Part shown: positions 16,935 through 20,727 of the stretch, piece by piece
Layout of the letters: each line of letters starts with the position of its first letter
Numbering within the stretch: the first letter of the stretch is position 1
Assembly: GCA_903916565.1 (NCBI GenBank)
Contig: CAIWXH010000732.1
Span: 1-35,254 of the forward strand
From: an uncultured Oscillochloris sp.
GTDB taxonomy: Bacteria > Chloroflexota > Chloroflexia > Chloroflexales > Chloroflexaceae
Reading direction: 5' to 3'
Length of the DNA stretch: 35,254 nucleotides
Program-made: the position numbers and the translations under genes
Notes under the pieces: model-generated
Seen by the model: only the letters and a program-made list of their open reading frames with translations
What the model was told of the DNA's origin: nothing
The model's database searches: none

Positions 16935-19040
16935 TCACGCGAAATTATTTTCGCCCCAGACAGAGACGCGATTGCGCCCCATGCATTTGGCGCTGTAAAG
17001 CGCCTGATCAGCGCGCCAGATCAACTCTTCGACCGTCGTCAGCGTTGGCTCGGCGATGGCGACCCCCAGACTAATCGTGACTTGGATCGGCCCGCTCGTC
17101 GTCGTGAACACTGTGCTCGCGACCGTCTGGCGGAGCCGCTCGGCAATCTGGCGCACCTGGATCGGACTGATCGCCGGGCTGATCATCACAAACTCTTCCC
17201 CGCCATAGCGGGCGACGATGTCCGAGGTCCGCACCTGTTTCAAACAGGTGGCGACGTGCGTCAGCACTTGGTCGCCTACCGCATGGCTGAAGGTGTCATT
17301 CACGCGCTTGAAGTGATCAATGTCGATGAAGATTGCCGCCAAGTCGCCCCCGTAGTGCTGACTCCCGTAGTGCTGAAGTCGGCGAAACTCGGCCTCGGCA
17401 AGCACGTTGAAGCGACGGCGGTTATACAAGCCCGTGAGGGGGTCGGTGTCGGCAAGCGTCTGAACGGCTTGGAGCAGGCGTACATTGTCTAGCGCAAGCG
17501 TCACTTCATGGGCCACCACTTGGGTGATGCTGGCGTGTTCCAGACTGTAGGCCCCAGCTTCAAGGCTGCCGATGGTCAGCACGCCAATCACCTGTTGGCC
17601 TTTGAGCAACGGCACGCCCATCCAACTTCGCAGCTCCGAGGAATTCGCTAGGTTCAGTGTACTCGTCTCGTTGAGTGCCTCAGCCCCCAGGATGAGCGGC
17701 GTCCGCCGCTGGATGACCAGCGCATACGGTTGCTGATCGGCGCGTATGAACTGGCCCACGCTGCTCGCTTGGCCCAGGCTACTCTGCACGGAAACCACCC
17801 GTAGGGTTTCGCCTTCAAGCAGCAGCAGAACCGATTCCTGACTGGGGATGAGGGCATCCAGATGCACCAGAACCTGCCGTGCCATGCGGTCAAAATCAAG
17901 CTCTGTCGCCAGATCGAGCATGGTTTGGCGCAGATACGCGGTCAGATCGCGCTCACGCCGGAGTGACTGCTCGACCTCCTGAAGAGCGGCGTAGGTGCGC
18001 GCATTGACGAGGGCCAGCCCGCACAAACTTGTGATTGCCAGCCCAAGATTGAGGTACTCGGTGCGGTGTTCGGGCAGGGCGATGTTGTACACCGCGACGA
18101 GGCCCAGCGGCTCATGGTGAGAGTGGATGCGGAGGTAGAAGCCGTTCTCGCGCTCCATCAGGGCGTAGTCACCAGGCATGGTCGCCAGGGCTTGTTCGAG
18201 CGCGGTGCGGGCTTCAGGCTTGCCCTGGAGCGAAAAGACCTGGCTAATCTGGCCGGCCTTGATCTGAGCATAGTCCAACTCGGTGCAGCCAAACAGCATG
18301 GCGAACAGATTCTGGATCGCGGTGATCGTCGCCTCTTCTGATTGAATCTGGGACATCTGCACCAGCAGATCAAAGGCCATTGCGTACTCGGCGATCTTCC
18401 GGTTCGCCGGCTGAAGCATCTGTTGCGTCTGGGCTTCGACGATGCTCAGGCGCCACTCAAGCACAATTTTCGCCAGAAAGAGCTTTAGGTAGTCGAGGCT
18501 GATCCGCCGCACTCGGTATGGGCGATCCACATAGGCGGCGAACTGCTCTAGCTCTGCCAGCGCATCGAGGTCGGTGCCCGTATCAAGCAGCAGCAGTTCG
18601 CGGGCACACTCATGGAAGAACTGGCGTGCGCTCGCGCGGTCGAAGCCCCAGCGTTGGAGTTGCTCGCGCCAGCGCTTCAGCCAACTTGGGGTGAGCAGAT
18701 ATGCGCCCGTGCGCGTTTCGCTCTCCCAGATCTCACGACCAGTCACCATCGCGAGGCAATGATCCAGCCGTACCCACTGGTGCGGCAGCATGGGCGCATG
18801 TTCCGCAGCGCTCGGGGGAAGTGAGCACGCACCGATGATCAGCACCTCGGTGCCATCGGGCGGGGGCGGCCTAAAAACCCCGTGGACGGGCTGGCGCTGG
18901 CGCTGCGGTTGGCTGCATGGCAGCGTGTAGCCCTCAACTTGAACCCAGGTGTAGCCCAGTTCGCGGATGGCGCGGGCGACACTCTCTTGGTAGAGGGCAC
19001 AGACCCGCAGGCAGAGCTTAGGCTTCACGGTCGATCCCAT
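16935..19040 (-). CDS. DUF1638-like N-terminal domain, GAF and GGDEF diguanylate cyclase
   Basis: C-terminal TDPLTGLYNRRRFNVLAEAEF...RTSDIVARYGGEEFVMISPA (GGEEF with RxxD I-site 5 residues upstream); central GAF-like region; N-terminus TEVLIIGACSLPPSA...GREIWESETRTGAYLLTPSWLKRWREQL...LLLDTGTDLDALAELEQFAA resembles DUF1638. Start MGSTVKPKLCLRV at 19040 chosen over the ORF start at 19217. Confidence 0.88.
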   Translation of the reverse strand: MGSTVKPKLCLRVCALYQESVARAIRELGYTWVQVEGYTLPCSQPQRQRQPVHGVFRPPPPDGTEVLIIGACSLPPSAAEHAPMLPHQWVRLDHCLAMVTGREIWESETRTGAYLLTPSWLKRWREQLQRWGFDRASARQFFHECARELLLLDTGTDLDALAELEQFAAYVDRPYRVRRISLDYLKLFLAKIVLEWRLSIVEAQTQQMLQPANRKIAEYAMAFDLLVQMSQIQSEEATITAIQNLFAMLFGCTELDYAQIKAGQISQVFSLQGKPEARTALEQALATMPGDYALMERENGFYLRIHSHHEPLGLVAVYNIALPEHRTEYLNLGLAITSLCGLALVNARTYAALQEVEQSLRRERDLTAYLRQTMLDLATELDFDRMARQVLVHLDALIPSQESVLLLLEGETLRVVSVQSSLGQASSVGQFIRADQQPYALVIQRRTPLILGAEALNETSTLNLANSSELRSWMGVPLLKGQQVIGVLTIGSLEAGAYSLEHASITQVVAHEVTLALDNVRLLQAVQTLADTDPLTGLYNRRRFNVLAEAEFRRLQHYGSQHYGGDLAAIFIDIDHFKRVNDTFSHAVGDQVLTHVATCLKQVRTSDIVARYGGEEFVMISPAISPIQVRQIAERLRQTVASTVFTTTSGPIQVTISLGVAIAEPTLTTVEELIWRADQALYSAKCMGRNRVSVWGENNFA

Positions 19041-20077
19041 TGGAGTGGGTAGGTGCCCCAGCGCTGGACCCCTTCGGCAATGGCTAAGAGGGTTTCCTCT
19101 GGGACTTGAAAGGGAATCTCGCCGTGGTTGTCGGCCAGAATGAAGCCGCCCCCAGGCCCGGCAGCCGCAAGAGCCGCCTTGACCGCCGCCTCGGCCTGGG
19201 CTGGAGACCACTGACACATCGCAATCCCGTTCAGGTTGCCGATCAGGCTGAGTTTGGCGGCGGCGGCCCGTTTCAGTGCGGCGAGATCTTCATCCACGCT
19301 GACCCCAAGCGCCACCGCGCCGGTGCGGGCGACATCGCCCACCAGCGGTAGGCAGCGCCCCGAGGCGAAGTGAAACGCGACCGGCCCGTTGATGCGGGCG
19401 AGGATGCGCGTCGTCATTGGGTGATCGAGGCGCAGAAATTGCTCACGGGGCACCATCGAGGTCGAGGCAAGCGGGTTAAAGTAGCAGATCGCGGTTGCGC
19501 CCGCTGCTAATTGCGCGTTCGCCCAAGCGACGCAAAACGCCTCGTTGAGCTGCATCAGCAGCGCGAAGAGTTCCGGCTGTTCGTACATCAGGATGAGATA
19601 CGCCTCGAAGCCCAACTGCATCACTGGCAGTGAGAACGGGGCCATGACCACCCCGATGATCGGCGTCTCGCCCTGGCTTCGTTCGCGTAGGCGGCTGATG
19701 GTATCGAGGCTGCGCCGCAGACAAGGGGTGTCGGCAATCGTGGGCGGCTGAAGCGTGCGGATCTGGGCAGGCTGGCGGATCAAGGGTTCGCCGGCATTGG
19801 GCGGCCCGTCGTCGCGAAAAATGACCTCGCCGCCCCATGCCTCGACCTCAAGGGCCGCGTAGAAGAATGGGTACAGACAGTCGTTGCGGTACTTGCGGGC
19901 CATGCGAAGCTGGCCTTCAACCACATGCTCGGCGCGGGCAAAGTAGTCCTTGATCGACAAACCCAGCTCTTTGGCCCCGTGCATCGTTAGCAGCAGGAAG
20001 AGCGGCACGCGATCCGGCTCCTGATGCCCAAGCGTAACCAGCACTCGTTGCAACGAGGTCATTGGTGTGGGCGTCAT
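19025..20077 (-). CDS. Uroporphyrinogen decarboxylase-family (corrinoid/CoM methyltransferase-like) protein
   Basis: SLQRVLVTLGHQEPDRVPLF, PIIGVVMAPFSLPVMQLGFE, GPVAFHFASGRCLPLVGDVARTGAVALGVSVDEDL, ADNHGEIPFQVPEETLLAIAEGVQRWG. Confidence 0.88.
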   Translation of the reverse strand: MTPTPMTSLQRVLVTLGHQEPDRVPLFLLLTMHGAKELGLSIKDYFARAEHVVEGQLRMARKYRNDCLYPFFYAALEVEAWGGEVIFRDDGPPNAGEPLIRQPAQIRTLQPPTIADTPCLRRSLDTISRLRERSQGETPIIGVVMAPFSLPVMQLGFEAYLILMYEQPELFALLMQLNEAFCVAWANAQLAAGATAICYFNPLASTSMVPREQFLRLDHPMTTRILARINGPVAFHFASGRCLPLVGDVARTGAVALGVSVDEDLAALKRAAAAKLSLIGNLNGIAMCQWSPAQAEAAVKAALAAAGPGGGFILADNHGEIPFQVPEETLLAIAEGVQRWGTYPLQWDRP

Positions 20078-20727
20078 GGCAACTCCTTCAGCAGTCGGCT
20101 GACGTGGCCCACCGCCTCGATGGCCGTTTTGCCCATCGCGTCAGCGCCGACGATGTGCCAGAGTTGCTCGTCAAAGCGAAATGGTGCGCCCCCGACGATC
20201 AGCTTGGGGTGCTGGTTCGCCAGCGTGAGTTGCCTGCGAACCTCTTTGATTCGTAGCGCCGAGGGCAGCATCAGCACCGAGATCAGCAGCACCGCGATGC
20301 GTTCCGCACGCACCTTCGCAACCAGCGTCTCGACATCAACGCGGCCAAAGTCGTTGACCTCGTAGCCGGTGGCGCGCAGCGACGAGTAGACCATCCGCTT
20401 CCCGAGCAAATGATAGTCTTCAAGCACGGCAATCGCCATCGGTGGCTGGCTGATGCGCTGGAGCTTTGCGGGCGGCAACAGGGTGTCTACGATCTCCTCG
20501 CAGATGCGCCCGCTCATATAGACTTGGGCCAGGGACAACTCACCCTGCTCCCACTGGGCACCAATCTGTTCGAGCGCCGGTACAATCAGTTGCTCGATCA
20601 GCGCAATGGCGTCAGTTTGATCGACAGAGCGGCTGAAGATCTGGCGTACGGCAAGGCGATCAATCGCCAAAAGCGCCTCTAGGAACTCATCAAGCGGCTG
20701 CGCTTGGCTAGCGAGGGAGACGAGCAT
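20074..20727 (-). CDS. Corrinoid (B12-binding) protein with cap domain
   Basis: Cap: AIALIEQLIVPALEQIGAQWEQGELSLAQVYMSGRICEEIVDTLLP; B12 domain with DxHxxG (VLEDYHLLGKRMVYSSLRATGYEVNDFG), ISVLM and IVGGAPFR. ATG at 20727; the longer ORF to 20904 reads into a repeat. 4-bp overlap with next gene. Confidence 0.88.
   Translation of the reverse strand: MLVSLASQAQPLDEFLEALLAIDRLAVRQIFSRSVDQTDAIALIEQLIVPALEQIGAQWEQGELSLAQVYMSGRICEEIVDTLLPPAKLQRISQPPMAIAVLEDYHLLGKRMVYSSLRATGYEVNDFGRVDVETLVAKVRAERIAVLLISVLMLPSALRIKEVRRQLTLANQHPKLIVGGAPFRFDEQLWHIVGADAMGKTAIEAVGHVSRLLKELP

Follow-up and report, generated by a model that had tools for sequence, protein, structure and literature searches.

What does a corrinoid protein of the methyltransferase type do in an operon that ends in a diguanylate cyclase? 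The question is raised by three overlapping minus-strand genes in a 35,254-nt stretch of DNA (here, the window) from an uncultured Oscillochloris sp. (GCA_903916565.1, contig CAIWXH010000732.1, positions 1 to 35,254 of the forward strand): COR (20074..20727), encoding a corrinoid (cobalamin-binding) protein of 217 amino acids (aa); UROD1 (19025..20077), encoding a 350-aa protein of the URO-D fold; and DGC (16935..19040), encoding a 701-aa putative diguanylate cyclase with the architecture DUF1638-GAF′-GAF-GGDEF. COR and UROD1 overlap by 4 nt (20074/20077), and UROD1 and DGC overlap by 16 nt (19025/19040); the coordinates and both junctions, as given in a first-pass annotation of this DNA, were confirmed. 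The mechanically delimited open reading frame of the cyclase is 760 aa long, and the ATG at 19040 gives the 701-aa protein. We propose, at a probability of roughly 0.52, that the trio is a cobamide-state sensor with an exchangeable output, which in the window is cyclic di-GMP (c-di-GMP). This proposal builds on the domains, their linkage and conservation, the exchange of the output domain, and the fact that neither the usual reactivase nor the usual substrate methyltransferases accompany the trio, all of which were established directly.

Domain architecture of the cyclase

Four regions make up DGC, all numbered here on the minus strand. The DUF1638 input domain (residues 1 to 182; 18495..19040) matches PF07796 at 3.8e-10 (40.3 bits against a gathering cut-off of 27) and contains Cys14, Cys73, and Cys95, which are conserved also in stand-alone DUF1638 proteins and in the Dehalococcoidia kinases considered below. 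It is the single DUF1638 of the genome. A long helix and an extra GAF-like domain, GAF′, follow (residues 183 to 361; 17958..18494). GAF′ was missed by Pfam and found by AlphaFold modeling, and its Foldseek matches are GAF domains, e.g., that of KdpD (4y2f; TM 0.67 on the target). A second GAF domain (residues 381 to 518; 17487..17900; PF13185, 1.2e-8; PF01590, 2.1e-7) precedes the GGDEF domain (16968..17453; PF00990, 4.7e-41). The fusion of DUF1638 with GAF and GGDEF, which had been proposed by eye from the translation, is thus real in the profile search.

The GGDEF domain carries a GGEEF active-site motif and an RxxD I-site, both of which had been noted previously. GGEEF is unchanged in an alignment of all nine GGDEF-type proteins; the I-site is kept in seven and is RDTE in the other two (L026 and L027). 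The cyclase motif is therefore intact, and cyclase activity is predicted.

Conservation and exchange of the output domain

Searches covered 100 Chloroflexota genomes, nearest kin first, including the window's own genome (5.5 Mb), which was searched family by family. The DUF1638-GAF′ protein was found in 12 of them, its own genome included, all within the window's own family, a group of filamentous phototrophs; named relatives belong to the Chloroflexales (Chloroflexales bacterium ZM16-3, “Ca. Chloroploca,” and “Ca. Oscillochloris fontis”). A matching UROD1 is present in 12/12 and COR at the same locus in 11/12, and the order COR-UROD1-DGC with a GGDEF output occurs in nine, i.e., the window's genome and eight others. 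Orthologues in other genomes are 48 to 79% identical and have unrelated flanks. Since flanking genes are not common between genera, the trio is itself the conserved unit, and the expectation of a three-gene neighborhood conserved in Chloroflexota was borne out. No flanking gene conserved across genera, which could have named a target, was found. In one genome of the same genus (G001, L020:4191-6884), the trio is immediately preceded by metK and ahcY, which share its strand.

The output domain is not constant. Three deeper-branching members (L028, L029, and L030) have the same N-terminus, including the GAF′ region that they share with the window cyclase, followed by a HisKA-HATPase-REC kinase; the N-terminus is truncated in L029. 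In a UROD1 tree the kinase members branch at the base and the GGDEF members group together as a single clade (100/99), a topology compatible with GGDEF having replaced a kinase output once. An exchangeable output domain is as expected of a sensor.

The corrinoid and URO-D proteins

COR has Pfam matches to B12-binding_2 (PF02607, 2.8e-14) and B12-binding (PF02310, 2.7e-15), and its best match in the PDB is a trimethylamine corrinoid protein (7xcn, 7e-16). It has the features of MtbC/MttC: a helical cap and a B12 domain with DxHxxG, SxL, and GG. The DxHxxG noted when it was first described as a corrinoid protein is invariant in 10/10 orthologues, and neither DxHxxGK nor GGAPF varies among them; for this reason COR should bind cobalamin.

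UROD1 is securely a member of the URO-D family (PF01208, 1.2e-53), and that part of its earlier designation as a UroD-family methyltransferase stands. The second part does not. Its TIGR01463 score of 87 bits lies under the 235-bit cut-off, it is distant from MtaA and CmuA, and in an alignment to MtaA (4ay7) the zinc ligands H-x-C..C become H-x-A..H; of the three kinase-type members, two have lost the zinc-ligand His. As the three MtaA zinc ligands are not kept, UROD1 is probably not a normal methyltransferase of the MtaA type, and a methyl donor as the signal becomes one possibility among several. HemE was considered as an alternative identity and rejected: the catalytic Asp of HemE is not kept (FSDIL aligns with FYAAL), the N-terminus reads DRVPLFLL rather than RQAGR, and the genome has a separate high-scoring URO-D protein on another contig (C376). 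UROD1 is nevertheless 57 to 79% identical between orthologues, with motifs such as DNHGEIP present throughout.

Absent partners and a second corrinoid operon

RACo, the usual corrinoid reactivase, is missing from all eight genomes that have only the window's operon type (type 1), three of which are at least 99% complete. Homologues of the substrate methyltransferases MttB (PF06253) and MtaB (PF12176) were found in none of the 12 trio-bearing genomes. The first-pass annotation had seen no MtaB/MttB-type gene nearby, and that observation now extends to all 12 genomes; a catabolic MttB/MtaB pathway was rejected on the same grounds.

A second operon (type 2), COR2-UROD2-RACo-GAF-GGDEF, lies on contig C27 of the same genome (L106:929-5852), with genes that overlap or abut. 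It occurs in this genome and six relatives, with a diguanylate cyclase as the last gene in 7/7; RACo is present in every type-2 genome, located in the type-2 operon. UROD2 is distant from UROD1, at about 26% identity. At an assumed density of one gene per kb, the 31 GGDEF matches in this 5.5-Mb genome would amount to ∼0.6% of its genes. Both COR-UROD pairs found in it nevertheless end in a GGDEF gene, and this is not likely to be due to chance. A sensor domain common to the type-1 and type-2 cyclases was sought and rejected (hhalign probability of 1.5%, E of 0.034, not significant). No B12-binding match lies on the contigs that carry the other URO-D genes of the genome (C376, C810, and C63).

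Proposed mechanism and competing explanations

For the trio, we infer complex formation, cobalamin binding, the nature of the signal, and the direction of control as follows. COR, to judge from its DxHxxG, would carry a base-off/His-on corrinoid. UROD1 may bind COR and a small molecule and set the axial-ligand or redox state of the corrinoid, or may only report that state. DUF1638 would dock on COR, much as its stand-alone counterparts probably dock on the corrinoid proteins of methyltransferases; through the long helix and both GAF domains, the docked state could then reach the GGDEF dimer and alter c-di-GMP synthesis. Candidate signals are methyl-Co(III), the Co(II)/Co(I) ratio, and cobamide supply. 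The earlier suggestion of a methyl-donor or corrinoid-state sensor with c-di-GMP output thus survives in its general form, in that sensing is favored by the output exchange, the second operon, and the lack of MttB and MtaB; the methyl donor is no more than a candidate signal.

The main rival, which we consider unlikely, is a small metabolic pathway of corrinoid methyl transfer (e.g., demethylation leading to methionine or S-adenosylmethionine) in which DUF1638 reactivates COR and the cyclase is an accessory adjusting motility or biofilm formation. DUF1638 is required for B12-dependent methionine synthesis in Phaeobacter (PMC5764234), COR keeps the full set of cobalamin ligands, the type-2 operon contains a member of a true reactivase family, and metK and ahcY stand just upstream of the trio in G001. 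That linkage was, however, seen in just one genome, and a metabolic pathway is difficult to reconcile with a UROD1 lacking the MtaA zinc triad, with type-1-only genomes lacking RACo, and with trio genomes lacking MttB and MtaB; nor would it account for relatives in which a kinase replaces the cyclase as the output domain.

It is more doubtful still that the trio senses redox state or cobamide supply only, with DUF1638 reading Co(II) versus Co(I), or simply the presence of a corrinoid, in COR, and UROD1 serving as a scaffold devoid of chemistry. UROD1 has neither the MtaA zinc triad nor the catalytic Asp of HemE, the three conserved cysteines of DUF1638 would suit a metal or redox center, and in Dehalococcoidia a COR relative without DxHxxG is still paired with DUF1638 where there is no UroD. 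The conservation of UROD1, DNHGEIP included, exceeds what a scaffold needs.

Light control of the cyclase in this phototrophic host, by a B12 photoreceptor of the CarH or photocobilin type, is largely refuted. Fusions of photocobilins to diguanylate cyclases are known (PMC10979010), and a separate pair on contig C592 of the same genome (L119:2896-4757) consists of a B12-binding protein overlapping a GGDEF gene. That protein has all four elements of the light signature (GxxW, EH, GxxH, and GxxxP; PMC11796333) and is predicted from them to be a green-light receptor, so that the pair would be a split photoreceptor-cyclase. It provides an internal contrast to COR, in which only GxxW is found, VY replaces EH, EDYH replaces GxxH, GxxxP is absent, and the methyltransferase-type DxHxxG is present instead. 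A chance or hitchhiking neighborhood devoid of any functional link is scarcely credible, common as GGDEF genes are in this genome, given the fusion of DUF1638 to the cyclase, the overlapping genes, the retention of the trio across genera despite differing flanks, and a second operon type that repeats the pairing while the output domain is exchanged.

Several points weigh against reading the trio as a cobamide-state sensor. Binding among the three proteins, corrinoid binding, and control of the cyclase are all predictions, and the GGDEF gene may be coexpressed simply to adjust behavior to a metabolic pathway. Foldseek found no solved structure related to the DUF1638 fold (best E of 0.015), and the fold therefore gives no clue to a ligand. 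Distribution is patchy at 12/100 genomes, with none in a same-genus genome that is 98% complete (G002). Among the kinase-type members, L029 shows no COR nearby in addition to its truncated DUF1638 N-terminus, and in L030 (in G019; L030:6160-7397) COR is encoded on the other strand and the UROD1 orthologue is split into two overlapping frames, owing to a frameshift in either the gene itself or its assembly.

Relation to known systems

Control of a cyclase by a cobalamin module is already known from the photocobilin-diguanylate cyclase AbDPcob (PDB 8J2Y; PMC10979010), in which a B12 domain fused to the cyclase binds adenosylcobalamin and bilin and senses light. In the window, a cobalamin-binding module would likewise control a GGDEF cyclase, but COR is a separate protein of the methyltransferase type, is without the light signature, and has DUF1638 and UroD partners. 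With the modules of MtbC/MttC and MtaA/MtbA the trio shares the corrinoid protein fold and DxHxxG in COR and the URO-D fold in UROD1; it differs in that an MttB/MtaB partner and the MtaA zinc triad are absent, type-1-only genomes are without RACo, and the third gene encodes a signaling enzyme.

In a partial literature search, we found no description of a methyltransferase-type corrinoid protein, a UroD protein, and DUF1638 as a signaling input, and, apart from the work on photocobilin, no paper that connects c-di-GMP with DUF1638 or with corrinoid proteins. If our proposal is correct, a non-light, enzyme-like cobamide input would join the short list of B12-based signaling systems, and the corrinoid machinery of one-carbon metabolism would be convertible to a sensor with an exchangeable output.

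DUF1638 in other Chloroflexota

In Phaeobacter, genetic data connect the DUF1638 protein PGA1_c13340 with the reactivation of B12 for methionine synthesis and assign it no specific function (PMC5764234); SPO2162 of Ruegeria rises with glycine betaine proteins (PMC12478193). These partners of RamA/DUF4445 have the same domain and the same three cysteines as the window copy, which differs in being fused to GAF-GAF-GGDEF and in occurring in genomes without RACo. The 30 Chloroflexota DUF1638 loci collected are mostly stand-alone, and most have one of three kinds of partner within 1.5 kb: RACo in 12, a corrinoid protein in 7, and UroD in 2. The statement in the first-pass annotation that DUF1638 neighbors one-carbon modules is accurate as to position, beside the corrinoid protein and RACo, but the domain is more than a neighbor in view of the genetic evidence on B12 reactivation from Phaeobacter (PMC5764234). 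For the stand-alone fold, the structure prediction is confident (pLDDT of 94.2). Long stand-alone DUF1638 frames in some high-GC genomes were considered as further fusions and set aside, having no second domain recognizable by eye.

A second setting for the domain appears in 14 DUF1638 loci (L091 to L104) from eight small Chloroflexota genomes judged Dehalococcoides/Dehalogenimonas-like from their size and their rdhA genes (PF13486). In 14/14 a COR relative of ∼200 aa precedes DUF1638 (e.g., L091:4258-8838), and rdhA lies inside the 14- to 16-kb stretch that was fetched. Profile comparison shows that this ∼200-aa protein and COR are homologous (pairwise E of 5e-7); in it DxHxxG is gone and GGxxF remains. 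In 12 of the 14, DUF1638 is the N-terminus of a cytoplasmic PAS-histidine kinase that is followed by a response regulator.

By gene content, we equate these loci with the RdhS/RdhP two-component systems, whose sensor kinases are cytoplasmic and whose detected signal is a published question (PMC13390414). They resemble the trio in the cytoplasmic sensor with an N-terminal DUF1638 and in the preceding COR relative; they differ in their output, in having no UroD, and in a B12-protein relative without DxHxxG. We suggest, only tentatively, that Chloroflexota may possess a general class of cytoplasmic sensors that read corrinoid proteins, with DUF1638 as the founding input domain. The partner, whether an intact corrinoid protein or a degenerate relative of one, would present its ligand or redox state to DUF1638; the phototrophic Chloroflexales would respond through c-di-GMP synthesis, and the Dehalococcoidia through a two-component system at their reductive-dehalogenase genes. 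Methyl-transfer machinery would then be used as a signal, not as a metabolic step. The testable link on offer, that DUF1638 reads corrinoid proteins, bears both on the signal of the soluble rdh kinases (PMC13390414) and on a DUF1638 phenotype that has no proposed function (PMC5764234).

At two of the Dehalococcoidia loci, L100 (6567-8324) and L104, DUF1638 is without the kinase part; a transposase beside the L100 gene suggests disruption by insertion.

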